DNA from: Thermodesulfovibrionia bacterium
GTDB taxonomy: Bacteria > Nitrospirota > Thermodesulfovibrionia > UBA6902
DNA: 42,078 nt
Direction: 5' to 3'
Assembly: GCA_945788685.1 (NCBI GenBank)
Contig: CALZMZ010000013.1
Span: forward strand, 1-42,078
Of the stretch, positions 7,552 through 32,624 are shown one piece after another; the first letter of the stretch is position 1, and each line of letters starts with the position of its first letter. Made by a program: the position numbers and the translations under genes. The notes beneath the pieces are model-generated. The model was not told the DNA's origin, ran no database searches, and was given only the letters and a program-made list of their open reading frames with translations.

Positions 7552-9069
7552 TTATTTCTTATCAGTCAGCTGGTACCTGCCTGAGATTCGGACTAAATCT
7601 GAAAGCTTATCAATTAATGGACGGGTCAACTGTTCCTGCCTGAGCCTCCACTCCCAGTTGCCATTGGCGCTGGCCGGCAAATTCATCCTGTCTTTTTCTC
7701 CGAGACAGAGGATGTCCTGCATAGGGATAATGGCCATGTCCGCAACAGAGGTCATGGCAAGCCTTATCAGCTCCCAGTTAATATGTTCTTCAGTAATCTC
7801 CCTTCCAAGGTAGAGAGAAATTCTTTTCCGGTCTTCCCCGGACAGTTCTGACCTGTACCATCCAATTATTGTATTGTTATCATGCGTGCCGGTGTAAATT
7901 ACGCAGTTCTTGACATGATTATGCGGGGCATAAGGATTGGTGGGCAGGTCTTCTCCAAATGCGAACAACAATACTTTCATACCCGGAAATCTGAACCTGC
8001 TGATTATAGTTCTCACATCATCAGTAATTATCCCAAGGTCTTCGGCAATTATTGCACCGGCAGGTACGTGCTCTAAAAGAGAATTGAAAAAATCCTTTGC
8101 CGGGGCATGCATCCACTTTCCGTTAATGGCGGTCTGCTCTGATGAATGGACCTGCCAGTATCCTACAAAGCCCCTGAAATGGTCCAGTCTGAACATATGG
8201 AAAAGGCTGTGATTATGTGTGATTCTCTTAATCCACCATTCATAACCTGATTTTTTAATAACATCCCATCTGTAAACCGGATGTCCCCACAACTGACCTG
8301 TTGAGCTGAAATAATCAGGCGGGACACCGGCAACATAATCCGGCTTTCTGTTTTCGTCAAGACTGAATATTTCAGGATTTGCCCAGACATCAGCACTATC
8401 GTACGTAACATAAATGGGGATGTCTCCGATTATTTTAATATTCCTGCTGTCACAATAGTTCTTCAGGGAATACCACTGGGTAAAGAAAAGAAACTGCAGA
8501 AACATTTCTTTCAGGATACTGTCTTTAAATGTATTGCGGCTCTCTATCAATGTCCCGTTATTTCTGTCTCTAAGATCTTCAGGCCAATCACCCCATTCAA
8601 GTCCCTTATTACTTTCCTTGATTGAAATAAACAGGCCATAGTCTTCGAGCCAGTAAGAGTTGGCATGAAAGAAATGCTGAAACTTCCGGTGCTCCGGCAG
8701 CTTTTCTTTAATTCTTTCAAATGCCTTTTGCAGCAGTCCTTCCTTGTATTCTGTAACTTTTTCGTAATTGACTTTTCCAGCTGAAAAATCAGGTGGATTT
8801 TTAATGTCATCCGCTTCCAGAAATCCGGTCTTTACAAGCCTGTCCGGACTGATAAGCAGATGGTTGCCTGCAAAGGCTGAAAAACTGCTGTATGGAGAAT
8901 TGCCATATGCAGCGTTCGTCTGGTTTAACGGAAGTATCTGCCAGTAACTCTGACCTGCTTCAGACAGGAAGTCAACGAATTTATAGGCTTCAGGCCCCAT
9001 GTCCCCGATCCCGTATTGTGACGGCAGTGATGTTATATGAAGAAGTATGCCGCTGCCCCGTTTACCCAA
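7552..9069 (-). CDS. malQ: 4-alpha-glucanotransferase (amylomaltase, GH77)
   Basis: This 505-residue cytoplasmic enzyme moves alpha-1,4-glucan segments between chains and glucose. All GH77 landmarks are present: GDIPIYVTYDSADVWANP near 215-232, the nucleophile D296 in FRLDHFRG, the acid/base E343 in IAEDLG and D397 in GTHDNNT. Length is typical of bacterial amylomaltases. The start is TTG at 9069: homologues begin RxSGILLH at this point, and AGGAGG overlaps the stop of the upstream gene just before it. It lies 8 bases after the DUF3536 GH57 gene, so the two form an operon. In the cluster it would recycle short glucans. Confidence 0.94.
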   Translation of the reverse strand: MGKRGSGILLHITSLPSQYGIGDMGPEAYKFVDFLSEAGQSYWQILPLNQTNAAYGNSPYSSFSAFAGNHLLISPDRLVKTGFLEADDIKNPPDFSAGKVNYEKVTEYKEGLLQKAFERIKEKLPEHRKFQHFFHANSYWLEDYGLFISIKESNKGLEWGDWPEDLRDRNNGTLIESRNTFKDSILKEMFLQFLFFTQWYSLKNYCDSRNIKIIGDIPIYVTYDSADVWANPEIFSLDENRKPDYVAGVPPDYFSSTGQLWGHPVYRWDVIKKSGYEWWIKRITHNHSLFHMFRLDHFRGFVGYWQVHSSEQTAINGKWMHAPAKDFFNSLLEHVPAGAIIAEDLGIITDDVRTIISRFRFPGMKVLLFAFGEDLPTNPYAPHNHVKNCVIYTGTHDNNTIIGWYRSELSGEDRKRISLYLGREITEEHINWELIRLAMTSVADMAIIPMQDILCLGEKDRMNLPASANGNWEWRLRQEQLTRPLIDKLSDLVRISGRYQLTDKK

Positions 9070-9077
9070 AAATCCTC

Positions 9078-11483
9078 CTAAACTTTAACATTAAGATAAT
9101 TTCCCAGCTTAAGAAAGCAGTCCATCCACTGCTTTGAGGATTCTTCCTTTTCTTTCATCTCTCTGAAATACTCCTGACTGACAGCGAAGTAGATATTCTG
9201 GGCCTTCCACACATTCAGTGAGAGTGAAAGCGGCTCAAGTGTTTCCAACGCATCAATAATCCTCTCGGGCAGTTCGGTCTGATAAGGTTCTGCACTGAAG
9301 TTTTCCATTTTTGTTATGATCCATTCACTAACTTTAAAACCCATTGTTGTGCTGTCTATCCTGACAGACCATCTTTTGGTCTCATCAATTAATCGTTTAA
9401 GTCGTACCTTGTCAAACGCCTCTTCTTCAAACATTTTCTTCAGGTCTGAATTGATAATATATTCTGCAGCAGCTGCAAATGGCCGTGGTATCTGGTGCCT
9501 CAGGTTTTCATAAAAATTCATGATAGTGATGTTGTTTTCATATATCTGCCGGTAAGCTGTCTCAACACCTTCATATGTAAGCTCCAGTATCTGGTCAAGC
9601 ACTTTCTTCTGCTCGTCCTTGAACAGATGCCACAGAGAATAAACATTGCTGTCAAAATGCTTGTCCATCTGTCTGACCACTTCAGGTATATTGCCCTGGG
9701 CAAACGTGTCCTTTAGTTCATTTTTCATTTCTTTAAGCTTTTCTTCAGTGATAAAGTCCCTGACACCTGCGCTGATATTGTGATCACCGAAATGAAGAAC
9801 GGCAAAACTTATATTTCGTTCTTCCCAGGTGATATCGGACGTAATCGTTGTCTGGCCCACAGCCAGGGTCATCTTCCCGGCCTCAAGCTGTTCATAAAAG
9901 TCACTTCTGGAAGTATAACAGCAGATCCTGGTTTCTGAACTGTAATCCTCAAAGATAGATGAAATGCAGTAGTGTGCACCAACCCTTAAAAGATCACACT
10001 GGGCCGGTTTTACATATTTGTCATAAGCAGCAGCGGCATTTTCAAACTTATTGGATGGTGCCTCTTTCAGTTTTTCTATATATTCCAGCTCCAGAGACGT
10101 GCCCTGAATATCTGAGGCATATTGAATGGCCTTGGATGCATACTGCATGATCTGGATATTTTCAACTCCCGAAACCTCGTCAAAGAACCAGCCGCAGCTT
10201 GTATACATCAACATGGCATTTCTCTGCATCTCAAGCAGGTTCAGGGCCTTTACTTTGTCTTCCTTTGAAAGGTCCCTGCTTGCATGTACACTGAAAAATT
10301 TCTCAATATTTTCCTGTGATCTGTCAAGAATGACCTCAATATAACCGTTTCTGGCGTCCCAGGGATTTCTGAAAACATTCGATGACTGGTTTTCATATAT
10401 GGTAATGAGAGAATCCCTTAACCAGTCCATCGCATTTCGAAGAGGTCTTCTCCATTCCTGTGTCCATCCCGGATGAGCTCCTGAGTTGCATCCACAGTTG
10501 TTCCTCCACCGTTCAACACCATGTATACAGCTCCAGGATGAATTTTCAAAAAGCTCCACTTCATACGTGGGAGGAAATTTTTCAAGATACCCGGCATAGT
10601 TTGTGATCTTTGCTATATTGTTTGACTCAATATGGTTGAGACAATATGCGAGGGCCATCTCACCGAACTTATGGTGATGGCCAAAGGTTTCACCGTCAGT
10701 GGCAACATGTATCAGATGGGCGGAGTCCTTTTTATCACGGGCTGCTCCAAGCAGACTGTTGGCAAGATTTTCCCCTTTAGTAAGCGCATTACCAAAAGCT
10801 ATGTTATGGGAAAGCCCGCCATCATAAAAGAACACACTGATTTCACCGCCGGATGGCAGTTTTACCCTATATGGCCGTGTAGTATCAATGGAACCGTCAG
10901 AAACCTCATGCCACTGATCATGCCCCTGTTTCCGGATTTTTTTTGCCTGTCCCGGGGCAAGGATTGTAAATGTAATGCCATGATCATAAAGGATTCTGAG
11001 TGTGTCCAGATCAACAGCGGTCTCAGGAAGCCACATGCCTTCCGGTTGTCTGTCAAATCTCTTTCTGAAATCATTTATGCCCCAGACCACCTGTGTTATT
11101 TTGTCATGTCTGTTGGCAAGGGGCATGATCATGTGGTTATATGCCTGGGCGATTGCGTTGCCGTGGCCGCTGTATTTTTCAATGCTTGTTTTGTCAGCTT
11201 CAAGAATTGCAGTATATACCTGTGGCGCGAACTCCTGCAGCCAGCTCAGAAGTGTGGGGCCGAAATTGAAACTTATCTTTTCGTAATTGCTTACTATCTG
11301 GTTGATCCTGCCTTCCCTGTCATGAATTCTTGTGACCGAGTTAGGTTCATAACATTCAGCGTTTATCCGTTCATTCCAGTCATGCCAGGGGTATGCAGAC
11401 TCCTGGGTCTCGATCATTTCCAGCCATGGGTTTTCACGCGGGGGCTGATAGAAATGTCCGTGTATGCAAATATGCCTTTTCAT
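9078..11483 (-). CDS. GH57 family glycoside hydrolase with DUF3536
   Basis: The 801-residue protein starts KRHICIHGHFYQPPRENPW, the usual N-terminus of DUF3536-containing GH57 proteins. The GH57 barrel fills about the first 350 residues, with the likely nucleophile E154 in GMWLPETAVD and acid/base D263 in ATDGETFGHH. The rest carries the DUF3536 region, a long helical part of unknown function. GH57 enzymes act on alpha-1,4/1,6 glucans (amylase, branching and debranching-like activities); the activity of this subgroup is not settled. No signal peptide is seen. It is the first gene of an operon with malQ and diverges from the DUF4912-GT4 gene across a 378-base region. Confidence 0.9.
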   Translation of the reverse strand: MKRHICIHGHFYQPPRENPWLEMIETQESAYPWHDWNERINAECYEPNSVTRIHDREGRINQIVSNYEKISFNFGPTLLSWLQEFAPQVYTAILEADKTSIEKYSGHGNAIAQAYNHMIMPLANRHDKITQVVWGINDFRKRFDRQPEGMWLPETAVDLDTLRILYDHGITFTILAPGQAKKIRKQGHDQWHEVSDGSIDTTRPYRVKLPSGGEISVFFYDGGLSHNIAFGNALTKGENLANSLLGAARDKKDSAHLIHVATDGETFGHHHKFGEMALAYCLNHIESNNIAKITNYAGYLEKFPPTYEVELFENSSWSCIHGVERWRNNCGCNSGAHPGWTQEWRRPLRNAMDWLRDSLITIYENQSSNVFRNPWDARNGYIEVILDRSQENIEKFFSVHASRDLSKEDKVKALNLLEMQRNAMLMYTSCGWFFDEVSGVENIQIMQYASKAIQYASDIQGTSLELEYIEKLKEAPSNKFENAAAAYDKYVKPAQCDLLRVGAHYCISSIFEDYSSETRICCYTSRSDFYEQLEAGKMTLAVGQTTITSDITWEERNISFAVLHFGDHNISAGVRDFITEEKLKEMKNELKDTFAQGNIPEVVRQMDKHFDSNVYSLWHLFKDEQKKVLDQILELTYEGVETAYRQIYENNITIMNFYENLRHQIPRPFAAAAEYIINSDLKKMFEEEAFDKVRLKRLIDETKRWSVRIDSTTMGFKVSEWIITKMENFSAEPYQTELPERIIDALETLEPLSLSLNVWKAQNIYFAVSQEYFREMKEKEESSKQWMDCFLKLGNYLNVKV

Positions 11484-11861: not shown

Positions 11862-13580
11862 TTGCCGGAAAAAAAGAAAAAAGCCGTACCCTCACAAACC
11901 CGTTTGAGAAACATTGCCTGGGAAGTGGGCCAGAATTATCCTGTTTCACATACAGCAGACTATATAGTTCTGTTAATGATTACTCCGGGAACAGGACATG
12001 TTCACTGGAATGTCACAAAAAGGACTGTCAGTTCCCTGGTCAGGAAGAAAATTATTATTGATGAACATATTCACCCGGTCGTGCGCATTCATGATGTGAC
12101 AGATATTATCTTTGACGGTTCCAACTCACACCGTTATTTTGACATAATGGTTGAGTCAAGCAAAGGACATTACACCTTTGCCCATGACCATAACGCAAGA
12201 CATTATATTGCCGAGATTGGTCTCAGCAATAAGGGCTCATTTCACACTGTTGCCAGGTCTGAAGCTGAGTTCTTTGGCAGTGACAGGCCATCCGGCATTT
12301 ACAGCACGTCAGGCCTGTTTGGTGGTGGAATGATAAACAGGATGTTTCCGGTTGAAAATATATTTGATGCCCCTGTGTATGAAAAGATGAACAATGAACT
12401 GGCATCGGTAAAAAGAAAACAGGTACTTTCAATAGCTGTTATTAACATTAATATACATGGGGCCCCGGATTCAGACAACCCGCTCAACGACTTTATCAGG
12501 AGCATGTCAAAAAGTTTTAAGACATTTGGCTGCAGGTCCGCATTGTTTGACAGGGAAGATAAAGATGCATTACATATTTCAGACACAACCATATTAAAAA
12601 CGGCAGGGACGGTTTCAGAATCCATATATAATAATGTGGCAGGCAAGCATAAGAAAAAGGCCTTTCATCTGGTCCATTGCCATGACTGGTATTCGTCACA
12701 GGCCGGCATTGATGCAAGGAAGGAATTAAAACTGCCTTTTGTTCTTACTCTGCATTCCACGGAATTTGAGAGAACAAAAGCAGACAGGATGTCAGATCTT
12801 TCAAATAAGATAAGCGCGATCGAAAAAAAAGCTGTCAAGGCCGCTGATCTGGTTATCGTTCCCCGCTTGTCAACCCGGGAGCAGGTGACAGGTCGTTATA
12901 AGGCACGGCCTGACAAGGTCATCATCATTCCTGATGTTATTGGTGACGTGCATGACAGTCAGGCTGCTCACACGTCTCACGCTTCAGAGGCAAGGCAATG
13001 GTTTGGTATTCCGCATGACAGTCAGGTTGTGCTTTATTCAGGAGAAATGTCACATGCCGGCGGTGCAGACCTTCTCATGGAGGCACTGTCCACTGTCTGC
13101 CGGAACCACAGGTTGTCTTATTTTATTTTTGCAGGAGAGGGTCCTCTGAAAGGAGAACTTGAATCCAGGGCCCATCACATGGGTGTCAGCCAGAGATGCC
13201 GTTTTACCGGACATTTACCCAGGAAATCATTTGAGTCTGTTCTATTGACCTCAGACTTTGTAGTAATACCTGCCAGGACATGGCAGGATGAGGGACTTGC
13301 AAAGATGGCTATAGATTATGGCAAGCCTGTTCTGGCGACACACCAGTCAGGCGTTAACTGCATTGAGCACGGCAAAAACGGTCTTGTTACATTTGACAAT
13401 CCCGGCTCTATTGTCTGGGGGGTGCAGGAACTGCTCCATAATCCATTGAAAGACAGTATGGTCCGTGCTGCTGTAAAAAGAAGCGCCGGACAGGCACCAT
13501 CGCTGGAAAGTATTGCGGCCCGGCATTATATGTACTATGAGATCTTACTGAAAAACAAGAAAGGGAGCAGACGTGTCTAA
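11862..13580 (+). CDS. DUF4912 domain fused to a GT4-type glycosyltransferase
   Basis: The protein has 572 residues from the TTG at 11862, placed by AGGAGG at 11851-11856 with 5-base spacing; the ATG at 11857 is out of frame. Residues about 25-140 match DUF4912: VHWNV corresponds to the usual YWE strand, and RIHDVTDIIFDGSNSHRYFD and AEIGLSNKGSFHTVARS to its later blocks. Residues about 180-560 form a GT-B glycosyltransferase resembling family GT4 (VHCHDWYSSQAG, LTLHSTEF, LYSGEMSHAGGADLL). The E-x7-E donor motif is not kept: the aligned segment reads TWQDEGLAKMAIDYGKPV, with W and M at the two Glu positions. It may be a modified or inactive transferase. It overlaps the next GH57 gene by 8 bases. 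Confidence 0.82.
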   Translation: MPEKKKKAVPSQTRLRNIAWEVGQNYPVSHTADYIVLLMITPGTGHVHWNVTKRTVSSLVRKKIIIDEHIHPVVRIHDVTDIIFDGSNSHRYFDIMVESSKGHYTFAHDHNARHYIAEIGLSNKGSFHTVARSEAEFFGSDRPSGIYSTSGLFGGGMINRMFPVENIFDAPVYEKMNNELASVKRKQVLSIAVININIHGAPDSDNPLNDFIRSMSKSFKTFGCRSALFDREDKDALHISDTTILKTAGTVSESIYNNVAGKHKKKAFHLVHCHDWYSSQAGIDARKELKLPFVLTLHSTEFERTKADRMSDLSNKISAIEKKAVKAADLVIVPRLSTREQVTGRYKARPDKVIIIPDVIGDVHDSQAAHTSHASEARQWFGIPHDSQVVLYSGEMSHAGGADLLMEALSTVCRNHRLSYFIFAGEGPLKGELESRAHHMGVSQRCRFTGHLPRKSFESVLLTSDFVVIPARTWQDEGLAKMAIDYGKPVLATHQSGVNCIEHGKNGLVTFDNPGSIVWGVQELLHNPLKDSMVRAAVKRSAGQAPSLESIAARHYMYYEILLKNKKGSRRV

Positions 13581-15156
13581 AGGATATGTGGCATTTGTAC
13601 TTCATGCGCATCTTCCATATGTGCGCCACCCCGAGTATGACTCGTTTCTTGAGGAACGGTGGTTTTTTGAGGCCATGACAGAGACATATATCCCGCTTGT
13701 TACATTCTTTGATAAGCTTGTCAAAGACAGGGTACGGTTCAGGACCACCATTTCAATTTCACCTTCTCTTCTTGCGATGATGGAAGACAGTCTGCTTCAG
13801 GAAAGGTATGAGGCCCACCTGTCAGGACTGATTGAACTGAGTAAAAAGGAGATGGACAGGACCAGCAGTGACCCGCATCTTCATCACCTTGCAGGAATGT
13901 ATCACGGGCTCTTTAAAGGAGCGAGAGATGTGTATGTAAAAAAGTACAGGCGAAAAATTTCATCAGCCTTTCTGAAATACCAAAAGAAAGGCGTTGTAGA
14001 GCTGATTACATCATCTTCAACACATGCCATCCTCCCCCTTATCTCTTCACTGCCAAAAGCAGTTGTTGCACAGGTCCGTAATGGTCTGGATTATTTTGAA
14101 AGTGTTTTTGGTTTCAGGCCCGGGGGTATGTGGCTGCCTGAATGCGCTTATGACCGGGGACTTGATAACATACTCAGCAAAGAAGGAATAAATTATTTTT
14201 TTATGGAAGCTCACGGTGTTGAAAACGCGAGCATTTCACCATTTTATGGTTTACATGCTCCTGTCTTTACCCCGTCAGGTATTGCAGCATTCGGAAGGGA
14301 CAGGGCAAGTACAAAGCAGGTCTGGTCTGCCAGGGAAGGATACCCGGGTGATCCTGATTACAGGGAGTTTTACCGTGATATCGGACATGATCTGGACCAT
14401 GATTATATCCATCCCTATATTGCCGGGGACGTACGCGTTGATACAGGCATCAAGTATCACAGGATAACAGGCCGGTCAGGCTGGAAGGAATATTATCATC
14501 CTCAAATTGCACAGGAACGTGCATCGCAGCATGCCGGAGATTTTCTTTATAAAAGAATATCACATATTGAATACCTTGCATCTGCCATGGAGACGAAACC
14601 TGTTGTGGTCGCTCCTTTTGATGCAGAGCTTTTCGGGCACTGGTGGTTTGAAGGGCCGCAGTGGCTGGATTACGTTATCCGAAAGGCCGCATATGACCAG
14701 GATGTACTGGAGCTGACAACCCCTTCTGAATATCTGAGACACCACCCTGTTCACCAGACGGGAACACCGGCATCATCTACCTGGGGACATAAGGGATATT
14801 ATGAGACATGGTTAAACAGTAAGACCGAGTGGATTTATCCTCAGCTTCATGAGTGTGCCCACAGGATGGAAAAGCTGGTGATGAAAAACGGAAAAGGCAG
14901 GGTTGCTGCACTGACCAAACGCGCTCTTAAGCAATGTATGAGGGAACTTTTACTTGCCCAGAGCTCGGACTGGCCTTTCATCATAAACAGCGGCACATCA
15001 GTGGAGTATGCTGAAAGAAGGGTTAAGGACCATGTGGCGAGATTTCATTTTCTGGCAAACGCGATAGACAAAAAGGACTTAAAATTAAAATACCTGTCTG
15101 CTATTGAACATATGGACAATATTTTTCCTGATATCGACTATAAGCTGTTCATGTAA
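13573..15156 (+). CDS. GH57 1,4-alpha-glucan branching enzyme-type protein (copy 1)
   Basis: The 527-residue protein begins with GTG at 13573, preceded by GGGAG and overlapping the upstream stop by 8 bases. It carries the GH57 branching-enzyme landmarks: HAHLPYVRHPE at the N-terminus, nucleophile E190 in GMWLPECAYDRG and acid/base D350 in APFDAELFGHWWFEGP. The C-terminal helical part (LLLAQSSDWPF and after) corresponds to DUF1957. Enzymes of this type, such as the Thermococcus and Thermus ones, create alpha-1,6 branches in glucans; some relatives only hydrolyse. It is clearly paralogous to the gene at 32625-34232, which shares most of these motifs. Both follow a DUF4912 coding unit. Confidence 0.9.
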   Translation: MSKGYVAFVLHAHLPYVRHPEYDSFLEERWFFEAMTETYIPLVTFFDKLVKDRVRFRTTISISPSLLAMMEDSLLQERYEAHLSGLIELSKKEMDRTSSDPHLHHLAGMYHGLFKGARDVYVKKYRRKISSAFLKYQKKGVVELITSSSTHAILPLISSLPKAVVAQVRNGLDYFESVFGFRPGGMWLPECAYDRGLDNILSKEGINYFFMEAHGVENASISPFYGLHAPVFTPSGIAAFGRDRASTKQVWSAREGYPGDPDYREFYRDIGHDLDHDYIHPYIAGDVRVDTGIKYHRITGRSGWKEYYHPQIAQERASQHAGDFLYKRISHIEYLASAMETKPVVVAPFDAELFGHWWFEGPQWLDYVIRKAAYDQDVLELTTPSEYLRHHPVHQTGTPASSTWGHKGYYETWLNSKTEWIYPQLHECAHRMEKLVMKNGKGRVAALTKRALKQCMRELLLAQSSDWPFIINSGTSVEYAERRVKDHVARFHFLANAIDKKDLKLKYLSAIEHMDNIFPDIDYKLFM

Positions 15157-15808: not shown

Positions 15809-16312
15809 TTATGGCATTAAAGCGGGATGGGTAAATACATAATCATTATGTTTTACAGGAGTGTGGCAGCCAAAACATTCCTGTACAAATGATTTATCTT
15901 TACCATACGGTTTTTGATCAAGGCCTTTCCATCTTGCAAACCCCCATCCTCCAGTTGATGCAAATTTTTCCGAGTCCTTTACCATAAACTCCGCATGGAC
16001 AAATTCACCCGGAATGACCGCTTTTTGCCACTTTTCATGATTAGTGTCTTTCCACACGAGTTTTCCAAGTATGGAACCGTCAGGCCAGGGATTGGTCTTT
16101 CCCTCTCTTGCAGCCTTAATTGCAGTATCATTTCCAAGAATCGCCCTCAGCGTTTGATTATCATCCCTGTGGGACACACTGATAACAGGCCAGTCCTTAT
16201 ATCCGTCAGGCAGATTGATTCCATTGGGAGCTGGATGTACATTATCGTCTGCAAAAGAGTTTACATAAAAACAGAAAGTAAACACGGTAATCAGGAATAT
16301 TAATCTTTTCAT
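15809..16312 (-). CDS. Cytochrome P460 family protein, periplasmic
   Basis: The 167-residue protein has a signal peptide (MKRLIFLITVFTFCFYVNSF, cleaved near residue 21) and one c-type heme motif, CFGCH, near the C-terminus. The order of blocks (LPDGYKDWPVIS, then the internal region, then heme motif) matches cytochrome P460. Characterised P460 enzymes oxidise hydroxylamine, with a Lys or similar crosslink to the heme; other members have unknown roles. GGAGG lies 5 bases before the ATG. The FadL-type gene starts upstream on the same strand, separated by a 201-base repeat-containing gap. Family call is firm; substrate is not known from sequence. Confidence 0.87.
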   Translation of the reverse strand: MKRLIFLITVFTFCFYVNSFADDNVHPAPNGINLPDGYKDWPVISVSHRDDNQTLRAILGNDTAIKAAREGKTNPWPDGSILGKLVWKDTNHEKWQKAVIPGEFVHAEFMVKDSEKFASTGGWGFARWKGLDQKPYGKDKSFVQECFGCHTPVKHNDYVFTHPALMP

Positions 16313-18023: not shown

Positions 18024-18143
18024 GCTGCAATAAACATCAATAATTTACATCCTCTAAAAATAAGTATAATATGGATGTAGAAGCAGGACAGGGTATTAAT
18101 AAAGGATCATTATTCATTTCAAAATTTACGTAAATAATATTTG

Positions 18144-19754
18144 ATGACAACGACTGAAAAGATTGCTATTAATAATGATTTAACACTCAAGGTTGATATT
18201 GAAGAGACAGACGACAATATATTCCTGTCCCTTCAAATGAATAACCAGGGGAATTGCCGTCTTCATTGGGGATTAAGCAGGAAGATAAGTAAAATCTGGA
18301 AACTCCCGCCCAGCACGTCATGGCCTTCAGGCAGTATTGTTTTTGGAGATTCAGCAATCCAGACACCTTTTGAATTACATGAAAATGAAAGCCGGATTAA
18401 ATTCAGTATGGAGAAATCAGCTGAATTCGGTGTTATGAACTTTGCCTTTTACTACCCTGATACAGACAGGTGGATCAATAATCACGGAAATAACTTTCAT
18501 ATCAGATTGCCGGTACCTGAAAAGGTTCGCACTGATACAGTAAACATACTTGAAGAGACTCTGTCAGGAGAAGTCCTGTATAAAGACAATTTTGAAATTG
18601 ATGACGAAGGTGATGTATCTGTAGCTGTAACAGGAGAGAATAATGCATTCAGGATTTATTTTGTAACAGATATTCCCGGCAAACTGCTTTTGCACTGGGG
18701 CGGGGCATTTAAAAATCCCTTTGAGTGGAGACTGCCTTCGGAACATATGTTACCGCCGGATACAGTTGTGTATGATGACAGGGCTGTTCAGACTGCATTT
18801 ATGTTTCAGGATAATGTAAACCGGTTGGAGCTGGAGTTTAATGAAGAAGCTGCTCCTCTTGGTATTCATTTTGTCCTTACGTTTGCTGATGAAGCAAGGT
18901 GGCTGAATGACAGGGGGCAGAACATTTATATACCTGTAGCAGAACTTCTTAAGAAAAACGCATACAAGGGAACTTCCGGCAATGCACATATTGCCAGGGA
19001 TATAGTGCAGGCAGAAACAGGCCGGAACTCATGGACATTGATGCACCGCTTTAACCTCGGTCATGACCTGCTGGACAGGATTGAAAAGGATGAAGAGGGT
19101 CTTGCACTGATCTTTGTCTGGATGCGCTATTCTTTTTTGCGCCAGCTCGACTGGCAGCGCAATTATAATACAAAGCCGAAAGAGCTGAGCCATGCCCAGG
19201 ACCGACTGACTCTGAAACTGGCAGATATGTACATTAATTTTCCTGACAGCAGGGAGATGATCAGTCTAATCATGAGCACCCTGGGCAGGGGTGGTGAAGG
19301 CCAGCGTATCAGGGATGAGATCCTCCAGATTATGCACCGTCATCATATCAAAGAGGTGGCAGGCCACTTTATGGAGGAATGGCACCAGAAGCTGCATAAC
19401 AATACTACTCCTGATGATATTGTGATATGTGAGGCCTATCTCGAATTTTTAAAAAGTGACGGCAATCTTGATCTGTTCTATTCAACTCTTGAGGCAGGCG
19501 GAGTTACAAAGGATCGACTGGAGAAGTTTGAACGTCCAATCATAACCCATCCTGATTTCATACCACACCTGAAAGATGCACTCATCCATGATTTTGAAAA
19601 CTATCTCAAGCTCCTGAAATCGGTCCATTCCGGGACTGATCTTGAAGGCGCTGCTGATGCAGCCGGATATCTGATGGATTATGAGATGAGGGAACATCTG
19701 AATTTTATTTTCCATTCCAGACATGATGCTTCGGTATCTTTAATAAAGAACTGA
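18144..19754 (+). CDS. Alpha-glucan water dikinase, N-terminal part (two CBM45 modules)
   Basis: This 536-residue ORF is the front part of a GWD (R1) protein. Two CBM45 starch-binding modules occupy about 10-125 (CRLHWGLS, IWKLPP, WINNHGNNFHIRL) and 155-270 (LLLHWGGAF, EWRLP, WLNDRGQNIYIPV). After them come the GWD-specific helical blocks: WTLMHRFNLGHDLLDRIEKD, QRNYNTKPKELSHAQDRLT, GRGGEGQRIRDEILQIMHR, EEWHQKLHNNTTPDDIVICE and SVHSGTDLEGA. GWD phosphorylates glucose units of starch using ATP and water. The track start is a TTG directly before the ATG at 18144. The frame ends at TGA (AAC TGA C), where homology continues in another frame at 19747 onward. GWD is mainly known from plants, algae and some protists. 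Confidence 0.9.
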   Translation: MTTTEKIAINNDLTLKVDIEETDDNIFLSLQMNNQGNCRLHWGLSRKISKIWKLPPSTSWPSGSIVFGDSAIQTPFELHENESRIKFSMEKSAEFGVMNFAFYYPDTDRWINNHGNNFHIRLPVPEKVRTDTVNILEETLSGEVLYKDNFEIDDEGDVSVAVTGENNAFRIYFVTDIPGKLLLHWGGAFKNPFEWRLPSEHMLPPDTVVYDDRAVQTAFMFQDNVNRLELEFNEEAAPLGIHFVLTFADEARWLNDRGQNIYIPVAELLKKNAYKGTSGNAHIARDIVQAETGRNSWTLMHRFNLGHDLLDRIEKDEEGLALIFVWMRYSFLRQLDWQRNYNTKPKELSHAQDRLTLKLADMYINFPDSREMISLIMSTLGRGGEGQRIRDEILQIMHRHHIKEVAGHFMEEWHQKLHNNTTPDDIVICEAYLEFLKSDGNLDLFYSTLEAGGVTKDRLEKFERPIITHPDFIPHLKDALIHDFENYLKLLKSVHSGTDLEGAADAAGYLMDYEMREHLNFIFHSRHDASVSLIKN

Positions 19755-21564
19755 CAGGGACAAATACCGGGTCCGGGAAATGATGTATCTGGATTTTGCT
19801 CTTGAAGCGTATTTGCGTGTTATTGTGGAACGAAATATTCATGATATTACAAATCATGATGATCTTGTTGAATTGATAGACCTCGTGCTTGAGAACCAGA
19901 TATTTTCCTTCAGCAACTTTGAACTTTCGGTCTGTTCCGGTCACTGGAACCGCCTTAAGGGAACTGATCGTGAAGGTCATGACTGGGCACTTCATGCCAA
20001 ATCTGTACTGGACAGGCTCGGAAGGGCGATAGCTGAACTGGGTGACCGTTACTATGGATTACTGCAGGACAATGCTCATTATCTCGGTGAGGCATTTTAT
20101 GCGGAAAAATGGACGATCAATCTGTTCAGTGAAGAGATAGTCAGAGGAAGGCTGTCATTTGTTCTCTCCATTCTGATCCATCATCTTGACCCTGTTCTTC
20201 GCAAACGAGCTAACCTTGGAGACTGGCAGGTCATAAGTCCGGGACAGGCCAGCGGAGTGGTTGAGGTTGTGCAGTCCCTGGACTCTGTTCAGGACAGGAC
20301 CTTTGAAAAGCCAACTATAATTATTGCTGACAGGGTCAGGGGGGATGAAGAACCCCCAACAGGACTTAGAGCAGTAATAACACCTGATCTGGTCGATCTG
20401 GTTGCTCATGTTGCGATAAGGGCCAGGAATGCAGGCATTCTTTTTGCTACATGTTATGACAGGGAAAAATTTGAAAAACTTAAAGGTATGAAGGGGCAGA
20501 CAACAAGTTTAAGAATAAACCCCTCTGGTGATATTGAAACATATGATTCAGAAGAAGACTGGGACGTGCAGTCTGTTGTGTCCGGGGCCGAGGTAAGAAA
20601 GATAAAGAGTTTTTCGAAAAACGGATATGTCGTTTCTTCAGAAAAATTCAGTCATGATCTCGTAGGAGGCAAGTCTCTAAATCTTACCAGCCTGAAGGGT
20701 AAAGTACCGGACTGGATCCATCTTCCTGCTTCAGCGGCCATCCCCTTTGGAGTAGCAGAACAGGTTCTGGCTCTTGATATTAATAAAGACACATCCGGTC
20801 AGATTAAACAACTGTCAGCCCTTATCGAAGATAATCCGGAGGAAAACCTCGCAAAGATACGAAAACTGATGCTTGATCTTAATGAGCCGCCTGAGCTTGT
20901 TTCATCGCTGCGGATTGTCCTGGAAGATGCAGGTCTTGGCTGGCATGAAAACTGGGAAGATGTATGGATGTGCATCAAACGTGTCTGGGCTTCCAAATGG
21001 AATGATAGAGCCTTTGTTAGCCGCAGGAAACAGGGGATTGCCGATGATGACCTGTATATGGCCGTACTTATCCAGCAGGTCGTGAAGGCTGAATATGCAT
21101 TTGTCATACATACCTCAGATCCGGTTACAGGTGACAGCGAAGAGCTTTATGCTGAAGTGGTTCCCGGACTCGGGGAAACACTTGTAGGGAATTATCCGGG
21201 AAAGGCCCTTGGTTTCAGTTCAGGCAAAAAGACGCCGGAACCAGGGATAATTTCATACCCAAGCAAAAGTATTGCATTGAGCGGAGGGGGTCTGATCTTC
21301 CGGTCAGACTCAAACGGTGAAGACCTCGCCGGGTATGCAGGAGCAGGACTGTATGACAGCGTGACAGTCGAGGAACCCAGAAAGATCCAGGTCAGCTATA
21401 ATGATGAGCCTCTGGTATGGGATGAAAAATTCAGAAATGATATTCTGTCGGCCATAACCAATATAGGTATTTCAATTGAGCACCTCATGGGATCGCCCCA
21501 GGACATCGAAGGTGTTTATAGCAAGGGTAAGTATTATGTTGTCCAGACACGACCACAGATATAA
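19747..21564 (+). CDS. Alpha-glucan water dikinase, C-terminal catalytic part
   Basis: The track places the start at ATG 19780, but homology-like residues run upstream to 19747 in this frame (TDRDKYRVREMMYLDFALE, like the DLLFLDIALD block of plant GWD). Numbering from 19780, the phospho-histidine domain has H210 in VAHVAIRARNAGILFATCYD, matching the catalytic His of plant GWD (SHVSVRARN). The C-terminal half is the ATP-binding PPDK-N-type domain (DLVGGKSLNL, PVTGDSEELYAEVVPGLGE, FRSDSNGEDLAGYAGAGLYD, ending YVVQTRPQI). Only a +1 frame change near 19747-19753 separates it from the N-terminal ORF. There is no good ribosome site before 19780. With both parts joined the protein would have normal GWD order; it could be a sequencing error, a true mutation, or two interacting chains. 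Confidence 0.88.
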   Translation, partial: RTDRDKYRVREMMYLDFALEAYLRVIVERNIHDITNHDDLVELIDLVLENQIFSFSNFELSVCSGHWNRLKGTDREGHDWALHAKSVLDRLGRAIAELGDRYYGLLQDNAHYLGEAFYAEKWTINLFSEEIVRGRLSFVLSILIHHLDPVLRKRANLGDWQVISPGQASGVVEVVQSLDSVQDRTFEKPTIIIADRVRGDEEPPTGLRAVITPDLVDLVAHVAIRARNAGILFATCYDREKFEKLKGMKGQTTSLRINPSGDIETYDSEEDWDVQSVVSGAEVRKIKSFSKNGYVVSSEKFSHDLVGGKSLNLTSLKGKVPDWIHLPASAAIPFGVAEQVLALDINKDTSGQIKQLSALIEDNPEENLAKIRKLMLDLNEPPELVSSLRIVLEDAGLGWHENWEDVWMCIKRVWASKWNDRAFVSRRKQGIADDDLYMAVLIQQVVKAEYAFVIHTSDPVTGDSEELYAEVVPGLGETLVGNYPGKALGFSSGKKTPEPGIISYPSKSIALSGGGLIFRSDSNGEDLAGYAGAGLYDSVTVEEPRKIQVSYNDEPLVWDEKFRNDILSAITNIGISIEHLMGSPQDIEGVYSKGKYYVVQTRPQI

Positions 21565-21681: not shown

Positions 21682-22488
21682 ATGAAGAAAATCAGAATAG
21701 GAAACCAGACTGCTTTTTCAGCTTCAGACATAATGGATCCGTTTGAATATGCCGTGGAAAACGGGTTTGACGCATTTGAGTGGTTTCCTGATAAGCAGGA
21801 CATAAACAAAGGCTGGGACGTTAATGATATAGACAGTCAGACCCGTTCTTATATCAGAACGGTTGCTGATAAACATGATATAGATCTTTCCGTGCATGCT
21901 TCTTTAGAGGCCGAGATGTGTAATGCTGACAAAATAGATGTAATGCTCTGTAATATCAACTTTGCACAGGAGATAGGGGCAACGCTTATCAATACGCATC
22001 TCTGTATAGAGAAAGGAATAAACTATTATGTGGATGCCATAACTCCTGTTGTGAGAGAGGCAGAGAAGGCGGGACTCAGTCTGGCAATTGAGAATACAGT
22101 ATTTACAGTCCCGAAAGATTTCAACAGGTTGTTTGATATTATAAGACAGCGTAAGATTGCATCATCAGGAAAGTTTGGCATGTGTCTGGACCTCGGTCAT
22201 GCCAACCTGTCCAGTTTCAGCCGGAATAATTTCCTGAAATTCCTCGATCTGCTTGATCCTGATGTTCCTATTATTCATATACATATGCATGAAAACTATG
22301 GTGACAACGACAGCCACCTTCCGCTCTTTACAGGACCTTCAGGAAAAAATATTTCAGGCATTGCTGGTTTTATTAAAAGAATGAATGGGCGGGGTTTCTC
22401 TGAATCAATAATTTTTGAGCAGTGGCCTGAACCACCGACTCTGCTGATTGAAGCAAGAGACAGGCTGTATAGTATGTGGAATGAGTAG
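21682..22488 (+). CDS. Sugar phosphate isomerase/epimerase family (xylose isomerase-like TIM barrel)
   Basis: This 268-residue protein is a single AP-endonuclease-2/xylose-isomerase-like TIM barrel. Probable metal ligands are visible at the strand ends: Glu in LAIENTVF, Asp and His in CLDLGHANLS, His in IIHIHMHENYGDNDSHLP and Glu in IIFEQW. Such enzymes isomerise or epimerise sugars, or act as endonuclease IV; the lack of the full set of nine endonuclease IV ligands and the G-D-N-D-S-H-L-P segment favour the sugar-isomerase branch. Substrate is unknown. The gene lies between the GWD and the GH13 gene on the same strand, which may mean a role in the glucan pathway. No strong ribosome site precedes the ATG. 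Confidence 0.8.
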   Translation: MKKIRIGNQTAFSASDIMDPFEYAVENGFDAFEWFPDKQDINKGWDVNDIDSQTRSYIRTVADKHDIDLSVHASLEAEMCNADKIDVMLCNINFAQEIGATLINTHLCIEKGINYYVDAITPVVREAEKAGLSLAIENTVFTVPKDFNRLFDIIRQRKIASSGKFGMCLDLGHANLSSFSRNNFLKFLDLLDPDVPIIHIHMHENYGDNDSHLPLFTGPSGKNISGIAGFIKRMNGRGFSESIIFEQWPEPPTLLIEARDRLYSMWNE

Positions 22489-22618: not shown

Positions 22619-23923
22619 ATGAGACAACCTGAAAAAATGATCATTTATAATTTATTTCCTCTGCTGGCAGGCAAGACCGGCCAGTGGGAGAGCCATCTGA
22701 AAAGGGCTGCTGAAATGGGTTTTAACTGGGTATTTGTTAACCCGATCCAGTATACAGGTTTTTCGGGCAGTCTTTATTCCATAAAGGACTATTTTCAGAT
22801 CAACCCTTTATTTGTAGATGAGGACAGCTCTGTAAGCCCGGGTGACCAGATAAAAGAAGTCAATAAACGTGCAGAAGAACTGGGGATGAAAATGATGATA
22901 GACCTCGTAATCAATCATTGTGCGGTTGACTCTGAATTGTTGGTTGAACATCCTCAATGGTTTGAATGGAGAAAAAAGGAGAAGGTTACCCATCCTTTTG
23001 CACTTGAAAACGGCAAGAAAGTTGTCTGGGGAGACCTTGCAAAGTTTGATCACAGGAACACCAGAGACAAGGAGGGAATGTTCCGGTTTTTCCTCAGTGT
23101 GGTGGAATTTCTTATAGATCTCGGGTATCACGGCTTTCGATGTGATGCAGCATACCAGCTTCCAAAAAGCCTTTGGGAAAGGCTTATTAAGGAGACCAGA
23201 GCAAAATATCCGGATACCATTTTTTTTGCAGAAACACTTGGCTGCTCATCTGACCAGACAAGGAAAACTGCGAGCGCCGGATTTGATTATATTTTTAACA
23301 GCTCCAAATGGTGGGATTTTCGCGGGACATGGCTGATGGAGCAGTATAACCTCACAAGAGATATTGCGCCGTCAATCAGCTTTCCTGAAAGCCATGACAC
23401 AGTGAGGCTCAATGAAGAACTGAACGGCAACATCGAAGGTCTGAAGCAGCGCTATCTTTTTACCGCGCTTTTTTCAGCCGGTACAATGATGCCTTCAGGG
23501 TTTGAGTTTGGTTTCCGCAAGAGGATGCATGTTGTAAAGACCAGGCCCGGTGACTGGGAGGAGACGGATATTGATCTTACTTCCTTTATCAGGAACGTGA
23601 ATAATATAAAAGAAAAGTATACGGTGTTTCACGAAGAGTCGCCAGCTGAGATTCTCCAATGTGACAATCCCAATGTACTTCTCTTCTGGAAGGCATCAAC
23701 CCATTCGCAGGATGAAGCGCTTCTTATTCTGAATAAAGATATATATCACCACCAGAGTTTTTATGCTAAGAGGTTATCTAACCTCATGCAGTCAAAGGCC
23801 CAGTTGACTGATGTGTCTCCGGAACAAACAATGGATTATATTCCCGAGCCATTTTCCTATGACCTCAGGCCGGGCCAGGGGATTGTGCTTGTTACTGCAA
23901 GGGATGCTGTCACTGAAGACTGA
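22619..23923 (+). CDS. GH13 alpha-amylase family enzyme, GlgE-like catalytic core
   Basis: This 434-residue protein is a GH13 barrel with the three catalytic acids in place: D176 in GFRCDAAYQ, E205 in FFAETLG and D260 in PESHDT. The wording of the blocks (FVNPIQYTG, MIDLVINHCAVDSELLVEHPQWF, RCDAAYQLP, AETLG) is closest to GlgE maltosyltransferases, which build alpha-1,4-glucan from maltose-1-phosphate. True GlgE has extra N-terminal domains and about 650 residues; this one starts directly at the barrel. It may therefore be a hydrolase or transferase of a GlgE-related subgroup. AGGAGATATA precedes the ATG. No signal peptide, so it acts in the cytoplasm, fitting the storage-glucan cluster. Confidence 0.82.
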   Translation: MRQPEKMIIYNLFPLLAGKTGQWESHLKRAAEMGFNWVFVNPIQYTGFSGSLYSIKDYFQINPLFVDEDSSVSPGDQIKEVNKRAEELGMKMMIDLVINHCAVDSELLVEHPQWFEWRKKEKVTHPFALENGKKVVWGDLAKFDHRNTRDKEGMFRFFLSVVEFLIDLGYHGFRCDAAYQLPKSLWERLIKETRAKYPDTIFFAETLGCSSDQTRKTASAGFDYIFNSSKWWDFRGTWLMEQYNLTRDIAPSISFPESHDTVRLNEELNGNIEGLKQRYLFTALFSAGTMMPSGFEFGFRKRMHVVKTRPGDWEETDIDLTSFIRNVNNIKEKYTVFHEESPAEILQCDNPNVLLFWKASTHSQDEALLILNKDIYHHQSFYAKRLSNLMQSKAQLTDVSPEQTMDYIPEPFSYDLRPGQGIVLVTARDAVTED

Positions 23924-30094: not shown

Positions 30095-31567
30095 TTACTT
30101 TTCCCTGATGTAATCGTAGACATTCATGTAGTGCCGACCAGGATGGTTCCATGAGAAATCATATTTCATGCCGTTTTCCATCAGCTCCCTGTAATATTCG
30201 GGGTACGAGTACCACATGCCAATAGCGCGATGCAGAGCAGATTCCAGTCCTTCATTATTGAAATTATGAAAGACATAACCGGTCCGTTCATTAAAGGGTC
30301 TCTGGGCATGGTCCGCATCAAAAACAGTGTCTCTTAATCCACCCGTGTCCCTTACCACCGGTATTGTCCCGTATTTCATGGCGATAAGCTGTGTCAAACC
30401 ACAGGGTTCAAACAGGCTTGGAACTATAATCATGTCAGAACCGGCATAAATAAGGTGAGACAGTTCTTCATCGAAGCCGATCTCAAGATGACAGTCAGGA
30501 TTGTCATTGAACTGATGCTTCAGGTTCCAGAAATAGCTGCTTATCTCATGGTCGGGGCTTGACCCTAACAGCACGAACTGGCATCCATGATCCAGGGCAA
30601 AAAAGATGGCATGTTTGATCAGGTGTACCCCTTTCTGGTGGTCCAGCCTTCCGATATAAGCGATTATCGGTTTGTATTCATTTCTTAACAGGAGTCTGTG
30701 GCGCAGCACTTCCTTGTTTCCATATTTTATGTCCAGATTTTCAGGACCATATTTATAAGGGATGTGACGGTCAGTTTCAGGATTCCAGATGTCATAGTCA
30801 ATACCGTTCAGTATGCCCCCGAATTTGCCCTGATGCACATGCAATGTGTGACCGAGACCATACCCTTCATCTGTGTACTTGATCTCCCCCGCATATGTAG
30901 GAGAGACAGTCGTCACAAAATTGGAATAAACGATTCCGCTTTTCATCAGGTTTAATGCGAAGGGATCAATGTTGTCCCGCATGCGGTCGAAGTGAAAATA
31001 ATGGCCTGAATTATTAAGCCCTGTTTCCCGCAGAATATACTCGCCTACAAGGCCCTGGTGTTTGAGGTTATGCAGTGTATAGCATACGCGGGGGTGGCTC
31101 ATACCGATATGTTTGTAAATATCATACAGGAGTACAGGAACGATTCCTGTCTGCCAGTCGTGGCAATGAACTATGTCCGGGTTTTTGCCGGATTTCAGCA
31201 TGAATTCCATCGCTGCCCTGCAGAAAAAGACATATCTCTCAGGATCATCATGATGTCCGTAAAAAACTCCCCGGTTAAAAAAGTTCTTACTGTGATGGGC
31301 GTCTATGAAATAACATTTGCGTCCATGGACAAATCCGAAATAAACCGTGCAGTGGACCCACTGGTCATAATAAGGGACAACAAGATCAGAATAGGATTCC
31401 TGAAGTCCATAAATCTGGTCATACCGCATACAGTCATATTTGGGGAGAATAATCTCGACATCATTGCCCCTGATTTCCAGTTCACGGCTCAGGCCGTACA
31501 CCACGTCGGCAAGACCGCCGACCTTGGCTACAGGCGCGCATTCTGATGCTATCATCATAATGTACAT
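30095..31567 (-). CDS. glgA: Glycogen synthase (GT5)
   Basis: The 490-residue cytoplasmic enzyme adds glucose from ADP- or UDP-glucose to the non-reducing end of alpha-1,4-glucan. The ADP-glucose-binding motif K15-x-G-G-L (PVAKVGGLADVVYGL) is at the N-terminus, HCHDWQTG lies in the N-terminal domain, and the C-terminal GT-B block IIVPSLFEPCGLTQLIAMKY plus TIPVVRDTGGLRDTV has the expected Glu residues. Length is typical. AGGA lies 7 bases before the ATG. The gene diverges from the DUF4912-GH57 pair across a 375-base region that includes a strong hairpin. No glgC is nearby to supply ADP-glucose. Confidence 0.95.
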   Translation of the reverse strand: MYIMMIASECAPVAKVGGLADVVYGLSRELEIRGNDVEIILPKYDCMRYDQIYGLQESYSDLVVPYYDQWVHCTVYFGFVHGRKCYFIDAHHSKNFFNRGVFYGHHDDPERYVFFCRAAMEFMLKSGKNPDIVHCHDWQTGIVPVLLYDIYKHIGMSHPRVCYTLHNLKHQGLVGEYILRETGLNNSGHYFHFDRMRDNIDPFALNLMKSGIVYSNFVTTVSPTYAGEIKYTDEGYGLGHTLHVHQGKFGGILNGIDYDIWNPETDRHIPYKYGPENLDIKYGNKEVLRHRLLLRNEYKPIIAYIGRLDHQKGVHLIKHAIFFALDHGCQFVLLGSSPDHEISSYFWNLKHQFNDNPDCHLEIGFDEELSHLIYAGSDMIIVPSLFEPCGLTQLIAMKYGTIPVVRDTGGLRDTVFDADHAQRPFNERTGYVFHNFNNEGLESALHRAIGMWYSYPEYYRELMENGMKYDFSWNHPGRHYMNVYDYIREK

Positions 31568-31942: not shown

Positions 31943-32578
31943 ATGGTCCACAAAAAAATGAAAAGACCTGCAAAAAAAAGACCTGTCAGAAAGGCAGCTG
32001 ACAGGCCCAGACTGCAGAAAAAAAGTGTTGATATAAAAAAGATCAAGAAGTCCCGCGTGATAAGGCAGGACCTCCCTTCAGCATATAACATGGATACTAT
32101 TGTAATCATGCCGGTAAATGTTGAGAAGAATTTTATTTACTGGGAAGTGACCGGGAAGCTTCTTAAAGAGCAGGGGGCGGGCAGGGGGCCTGTAAAGCTT
32201 ATGGTCAAAATATATGAAACGGACACTGATAAAGAGGTTTATTCTTTTACGGTCAATGAAAAAGTGGGCAAACACTATATGCACAGCCCTGTTCCTGTAA
32301 CAAGCCTTTTTGCGGAGATCGGGACAGTGAGAGGAAAGACATTTACTTCCCTTATGAAATCAAATCCGGTATCACTGACTGCCGTTTCTGCCAGGACGGC
32401 AGATCATGAAGTATGGATAAGAAGGATAAAAGATTCTGCAGAGGCATTTCATGTCTCTGACATTGAGGTAACAAGAATATCAAAATATAATCCATTTCTG
32501 CATAAGCACTTCCATGAACTGCAGGATGTATTTGAATCTCCTTTTTCAAGCAGCACACTCCTGCGCCAGCGAAGCTAG
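31943..32578 (+). CDS. DUF4912 protein with basic N-terminus
   Basis: The first 45 of 211 residues are strongly basic (MVHKKMKRPAKKRPVRKAAD and after), probably disordered. Residues about 50-155 match DUF4912: DTIVIMPVNVEKNFIYWEVT (the usual R-D-x-x-W-x-x-x-Y-W-E strand), then LMVKIYET, and FAEIGTVRGKTFTSLMKSNPV. The function of DUF4912 is unknown. The gene is followed 46 bases later by a GH57 branching-type gene, just as the other DUF4912 unit in the window (11862) is followed by one, so a role with these enzymes is likely. There is no Shine-Dalgarno before the ATG at 31943; the Met at 31958 is an alternative start. Confidence 0.75.
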   Translation: MVHKKMKRPAKKRPVRKAADRPRLQKKSVDIKKIKKSRVIRQDLPSAYNMDTIVIMPVNVEKNFIYWEVTGKLLKEQGAGRGPVKLMVKIYETDTDKEVYSFTVNEKVGKHYMHSPVPVTSLFAEIGTVRGKTFTSLMKSNPVSLTAVSARTADHEVWIRRIKDSAEAFHVSDIEVTRISKYNPFLHKHFHELQDVFESPFSSSTLLRQRS

Positions 32579-32624
32579 AAAGACCCTTGTTGATATTAAA
32601 AATATATTGCGGTGATCGATCTCC

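Follow-up and report, generated by a model that had tools for sequence, protein, structure and literature searches.

Do bacteria place phosphate on their storage glucans and take it off again? The question is raised by a 42,078-nt stretch of DNA (the window) from a Thermodesulfovibrionia bacterium of the Nitrospirota (contig CALZMZ010000013.1 of assembly GCA_945788685.1, here genome G000), in which an earlier note, made from the letters alone, had picked out a plant-type glucan water dikinase (GWD) among glycogen genes. The evolution of GWD has been linked to that of the primary plastid, and the enzyme has been regarded as a marker of organisms that make starch (PMC6260743); phosphate on bacterial glycogen was still speculative in 2025 (PMC13011383). 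With a conserved operon in bacteria that includes two paralogous dikinases, the plastid-origin view and bacterial glycogen phosphate both become testable. Judged by its domains and motifs, the gene at positions 18141-21564, here called GWD-A, is confirmed as a CBM45-bearing GWD homologue in a bacterium. The next gene, which the note passed over and which encodes a TIM barrel that we call TIM1, is the more informative part of the locus. Together the two probably form a bacterial module for alpha-glucan phosphorylation, with GWD-A as the dikinase and TIM1 as a candidate phosphoglucan phosphatase; on this reading bacteria, too, may phosphorylate their storage glucan reversibly. The proposal draws on homology, on the order of domains and the conservation of catalytic residues, on a gene order kept across phyla, and on gene fusion and co-occurrence; from these we infer the substrate, the phosphorylated position, the phosphatase role and the effect on turnover.

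The dikinase gene and its interrupted frame

In the window GWD-A is present as two open reading frames (ORFs), at the junction of which the sequence is shorter than that of its relatives:

18141-19754, forward strand: first GWD-A ORF, 537 aa, TTG start, covering the two CBM45-type modules and the greater part of the helical core
19749-19750, no strand: 50-nt out-of-frame gap against L070 and L089, from the DNA alignment; placement ambiguous by a few bases
19780-21564, forward strand: second GWD-A ORF, 594 aa, with the end of the helical core, the phosphohistidine domain, the LFATC motif and the ATP-binding PPDK_N domain

The elements first read from the letters, namely two CBM45-like modules, the GWD helical blocks, the phosphohistidine motif AHVAIRARN and a PPDK-N-type ATP domain, were all recovered by motif reading and Pfam. 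The GWD1 N-terminal Ig-like domain (PF23166) matches two stretches of the first ORF (E = 4.9e-52, 175.6 bits), and the second holds the GWD phosphohistidine domain (PF22973, E = 1.5e-35) and, at its C-terminus, the ATP-binding domain PPDK_N (PF01326, E = 1.2e-27). The tryptophan motifs of the CBM45 modules read CRLHWGL (18255-18275) and LLLHWGG (18684-18704), and the helical-block motifs GRGGEGQRIRDEI (19284-19322) and WHQKLHNNTTPDDIVICE (19380-19433). AHVAIRARN, which holds the catalytic histidine, lies at 20404-20430 in the second ORF, and the ATP-domain motif RSDSNGEDL at 21301-21327. The catalytic histidine (H773 of L015) is invariant in an alignment of 25 bacterial relatives.

Over the helical core, a profile built from 25 bacterial relatives finds solved fragments of chloroplast GWD (PDB 9ha9, E = 2e-125; 9qvi, E = 1e-124), the next PDB matches being PEP (phosphoenolpyruvate)-synthase-type ATP domains at 4.5e-26 or weaker; the window protein itself is 42.5% identical to the plant GWD helical core over 393 residues. 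In the AlphaFold2 model of the intact relative, which has a mean predicted local distance difference test score (pLDDT) of 84.9, two all-beta modules are followed by an all-helical core and then by the swivel and ATP domains, as in GWD. A fold search with the whole model gave clear matches only for the ATP domain, and 9ha9 was not among the matches listed. Two doubts voiced at the outset can be set aside. Pfam finds GWD domains in the protein, which is thus no plain PEP synthase, and the contig is not eukaryotic contamination: its flanking genes are bacterial, and the same gene occurs in a 3.17-Mb single-contig Nitrospirota metagenome-assembled genome (MAG) and in ~80 other bacterial records.

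Plant and algal GWD1 (EC 2.7.9.4) shares with GWD-A the two CBM45-type modules, the helical core, the phosphohistidine domain, the C-terminal PPDK_N domain and the catalytic histidine. The intact bacterial relative is shorter, however, at ~1157 aa against ~1420 aa for PpGWDa (PMC6805951), and bacterial GWD-A, unlike the plant gene, stands in an operon with a TIM barrel. Where land-plant GWD1 has the redox motif CFATC the window has LFATC, and the first cysteine is missing from those relatives that were examined for the motif; green and red algae have lost CFATC as well (PMC11986951), so that it is no strict hallmark of GWD1.

Compared with L070 (CP070632), of the same genus, and with the Thermodesulfovibrionia MAG L089, 50 nt are missing from the window, and this shifts the frame and splits the gene in two. 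A one-base sequencing slip was considered as the cause and rejected, the gap being 50 nt. The congener L015/L070, the 3.17-Mb single-contig genome, carries one intact 1157-aa ORF, and in most relatives the gene is intact too; the first window ORF is 77.6% identical to L015/L070 and the second 78.3% identical to L015. Against L070 both halves have a proportion of non-synonymous differences (pN) of ~0.12 and of synonymous differences (pS) of ~0.54, and the neighbouring TIM1 gene is alike. Because the two halves are under the same purifying selection, the break would be either recent or an assembly error, and because the gene is interrupted in this assembly, its activity in this organism is predicted only.

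That GWD-A is instead a decaying pseudogene here, with no glucan phosphorylation taking place, is possible, though on the unlikely side. Besides the out-of-frame gap itself, it would fit this idea that GWD-B, a second and distant dikinase of the relatives, and TIM2, the second barrel that goes with it, were not found in this 84%-complete assembly. That said, constraint is still equal on both halves of the gene, the adjoining TIM1 and GH13 genes are intact, and the assembly is a draft of 192 contigs.

TIM1, a candidate phosphoglucan phosphatase

The gene that follows the dikinase is the second component of the proposed module:

21682-22488, forward strand: TIM1, Endo IV-like TIM barrel of 268 aa, candidate metal-dependent phosphoesterase (PF01261, AP_endonuc_2), the next gene after GWD-A

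Its putative metal ligands are H72, H106, E137, D170, H173, H199, D210, H212 and E246, nine positions which we take to be those of the trinuclear metal site of endonuclease IV (Endo IV). All 52 sequences compared, standalone or fused, have them unchanged, and so do 29 of 29 in alignment A3. Compared with solved proteins, the TIM1 profile matches MJ1311 (E = 5e-15) and then Endo IV of Mycobacterium tuberculosis (5zhz, E = 3e-5), and in the profile alignment eight of the nine ligands fall on residues of the latter. The model of TIM1 (pLDDT 93.6) has MJ1311 as its closest fold and lies near both Endo IV and several epimerases, so the fold alone is not decisive.

The barrel fold and the nine ligands are thus what TIM1 has in common with the phosphodiesterase Endo IV and with CbiR, an oxygen-sensitive member of the AP endonuclease 2 superfamily that is a metal-dependent phosphodiesterase (PMC7733943). 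It differs from them in its glucan-gene context, in an identity of ~15-16% to E. coli Endo IV by structural alignment, and in a score of 27.3 bits against the CbiR family model, below the cut-off of 105. The known glucan phosphatases SEX4 and laforin resemble TIM1 in its proposed role only, their fold being unrelated to that of a PF01261 protein. The search for phosphoglucan phosphatase genes that had been recommended at the outset gave no dual-specificity phosphatase domain (DSPc, PF00782) in the window genome G000 or in its 95%-complete congener G001. The Endo IV ligands, the kinship with CbiR and the lack of DSPc in these two genomes are the reasons for favouring TIM1 as a metal-dependent phosphoesterase whose substrate would be glucosyl phosphate. 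That it serves as the glucan phosphatase, in place of SEX4 or laforin, is a tentative but substantial possibility judged from sequence; if TIM1 does remove glucan phosphate, it would add a new class to the glucan phosphatases, with relevance to starch technology and to work on Lafora disease.

A rather unlikely alternative keeps GWD-A as the alpha-glucan dikinase and makes TIM1 a sugar or sugar-phosphate isomerase or epimerase working on the products of glucan breakdown. The best structural neighbours do include the D-tagatose 3-epimerase-like MJ1311 and UlaE, and Pfam AP_endonuc_2 is a mixed family. However, epimerases are known to retain only an E/D/H/E set, whereas in TIM1 all nine Endo IV ligands are invariant, the two early histidines and the pair in D-x-H among them. 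Moreover, the second PDB match of the profile is an endonuclease IV, not an epimerase, and fusion to a dikinase fits the handling of phosphate.

Gene order ties the candidate phosphatase to the dikinase. Among 70 named loci with room downstream of GWD-A, TIM1 directly follows it in 48, from seven named phyla; in 24 of these it is a standalone gene and in the other 24 it is fused to GWD-B, with the TIM1-type barrel forming the N-terminus. The GWD-A and TIM1 ORFs mostly overlap or lie no more than ~130 nt apart. The two also co-occur across genomes in three phyla. Within the window's own class (231 genomes), both were found in 47, GWD only in 10, TIM1 only in 3 and neither in 171 (p = 2e-35, phylogeny ignored), and the co-occurrence includes genomes such as G145 in which the two are unlinked. 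One of the three TIM1-only genomes, G002, proved to be an artefact, since it carries the end of a GWD gene at a contig edge; this leaves two. Of 286 genomes sampled from a Verrucomicrobia class, four carry GWD and the same four carry TIM1, and in a planctomycete class TIM1 is on the GWD contig in all six genomes with GWD.

TIM1 homologues are also seen in planctomycetes without GWD. Two of these have apparently lost a ligand, as read by eye (L158 5587-6432, H106 to Y; L162 4333-5142, H72 to Q). In a third (L159 285-6879, reverse strand) the homologue adjoins GlgE and a maltokinase-GlgB fusion, a context that hints at a wider role of TIM1 in glucan or maltose-phosphate metabolism.

Spread and descent of bacterial GWD

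The idea of the dikinase as an isolated plant-type oddity was not borne out. In the window's class PF22973 scores above its cut-off in 57 of 231 genomes, against 0 of 14 control genomes. Among GTDB representatives, a scan confirmed 138 relatives, of which 80 were kept; many are MAGs, and names are used as in their records. The kept relatives come from at least nine named phyla: Nitrospirota, Planctomycetota, Verrucomicrobiota, Thermodesulfobacteriota, Myxococcota, Pseudomonadota, Acidobacteriota, Nitrospinota and Deferribacterota, with Scalindua, Anammoxibacter and Gemmataceae among the planctomycete carriers. By homology, then, GWD-A is a widespread bacterial family. Identity among its members goes down to 36%, and their identity to the plant GWD helical core (9ha9) is 34-44%.

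A quick tree of the helical core was built from 76 bacterial GWD-A rows and one plant sequence, which sits on a long branch. Plant GWD falls outside all 76 bacterial rows with a low support of 81 and a long-branch warning. The window sequence groups with its congener (support 100) and then with Anammoxibacter (99). GWD-A of this Nitrospirota genus thus stands in the tree beside that of anammox planctomycetes (L071, L072, L075), and the grouping suggests that the gene may have been exchanged between them.

Bacterial GWD is already known from a single figure legend of 2018, that of the GWD tree in Fig. 9 of PMC6260743, where some bacteria are coloured and are said to have possibly obtained GWD by lateral gene transfer; no description of a bacterial GWD operon was found in the open-access literature. 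Transfer from algae or plants into the present lineage is improbable. In its favour are that legend and the limits of a comparison with one plant sequence on a long branch, but in the helical-core tree plant GWD lies outside the bacterial rows (support 81, long-branch warning), the bacterial sequences diverge to 36% identity over at least nine phyla, the operon and the fusion partner are bacterial, and the nearest relatives of the window gene are a Nitrospirota congener and then an anammox bacterium. Eukaryotic GWD and PWD sequences were also sought in viral contigs, and none were found.

The proposed module and its genomic setting

GWD-A likely acts as a dikinase on alpha-glucan, to judge from its sequence. 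In the proposed mechanism it would bind the storage glucan through its CBM45 modules and pass the beta-phosphate of ATP by way of its swivelling histidine to a glucosyl hydroxyl (C6 in plants). Phosphorylation would loosen ordered chains and so give GH13, GH77 and phosphorylase enzymes access to them. The polymer might conceivably be starch-like, as the earlier note proposed. The TIM1 barrel, as a metal-dependent phosphoesterase, would most likely take the glucosyl phosphate off again, and where GWD-B is present a second phosphorylation is likely. It is very improbable that GWD-A phosphorylates a non-polyglucan substrate such as a small sugar, an antibiotic or PEP. Rifampin phosphotransferase and PEP synthase are indeed closest to its ATP domain in structure and sequence. 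Yet no domain of the PEP/pyruvate type was found, and the protein has CBM45 modules and the helical core of GWD and is encoded among alpha-glucan genes.

Several observations weigh against the module of GWD-A and TIM1. The 50-nt gap interrupts the dikinase gene in the window assembly, and in the window's class ten genomes carry GWD but no TIM1. Conversely, seven planctomycetes hold a lower-scoring TIM1 homologue without GWD, and in six of the seven there is no recognised glucan gene among the neighbours examined. The co-occurrence counts are uncorrected for phylogeny. Finally, the TIM superfamily also holds sugar epimerases, to which the TIM1 model is as near as it is to Endo IV.

GWD-B shares the phosphohistidine and ATP domains with GWD-A, and its helical core is just 17-23% identical to plant GWD. 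Like PWD/GWD3 (EC 2.7.9.5) it is a second, distant GWD paralogue, and most GWD-B have VFxxC where PWD has VFVTC (PMC6805951). Identification as PWD was nevertheless rejected because CBM20 is absent: the three GWD-B scanned with Pfam (L056, L058, L016) have an N-terminal TIM barrel or nothing in its place. Where the locus leaves room for it, GWD-B is directly followed by TIM2, a family of ~350 aa with no Pfam match of its own, in 18 of 22 cases (17 by script, plus L099). TIM2 shares the metal-ligand pattern of TIM1, and in a profile comparison of the two (E = 8e-7) the ligand positions are aligned. Examples are as follows:

L016, 11283-12305: TIM2 after GWD-B
L117, 11803-12903: TIM2 after GWD-B
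Also after GWD-B in L071, L072, L075, L088, L101, L103, L109, L114, L119, L128, L133 and L140

The Scalindua MAGs L072 and L075 have the complete set of GWD-A, TIM1-GWD-B fusion and TIM2. G001 carries GWD-B and TIM2 at a separate locus, where their ORFs overlap by 4 nt. TIM2 is absent from two planctomycetes with GWD-A and TIM1, in which the GWD search gave one match each. It is fused to a GH13-like enzyme in L122 (16454-18799) and L123 (16510-18858); in the window the GH13 is a separate gene. A broader scheme would have a full reversible cycle in many phyla, with GWD-A and a GWD-B of PWD-like motifs as dikinases, TIM1 and TIM2 as Endo IV-like phosphoglucan phosphatases unrelated to SEX4, paralogues that predate the plastid, and eukaryotic enzymes derived from such bacteria; we regard it as doubtful.

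The dikinase does lie among alpha-glucan genes, as the earlier note had it: a GT5 GlgA, two GH57 branching enzymes, GlgB, GH77 and GH13. Domains in the following list are from Pfam:

22619-23923, forward strand: GH13-like enzyme (PF14701 and PF00128), nearest PDB entries alpha-amylases
11862-15156, forward strand: DUF4912-GT4 glycosyltransferase and GH57 branching enzyme
7552-11483, reverse strand: GH77 4-alpha-glucanotransferase (MalQ) and GH57-DUF3536 protein
30095-31567, reverse strand: GT5 glycogen/starch synthase of the GlgA type (PF08323, E = 2.5e-66)
31943-34232, forward strand: DUF4912 protein and second GH57 branching enzyme
34307-36325, reverse strand: GlgB-type GH13 branching enzyme (CBM48, alpha-amylase and alpha-amylase C domains)

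The GH13-like enzyme belongs to the conserved gene group, its gene following GWD-A at a distance of up to 6 kb in 19 of the 70 loci, and in L088 and L103 the dikinase, TIM2, GH13, GT4, GH57 and GT5 genes all run in the same direction. DUF4912 occurs twice in the window, each time adjoining a GH57 branching enzyme, once fused to GT4 (11862-13580) and once standalone (31943-32578). A cytochrome P460 family protein is also encoded near the glucan genes (15809-16312, reverse strand).

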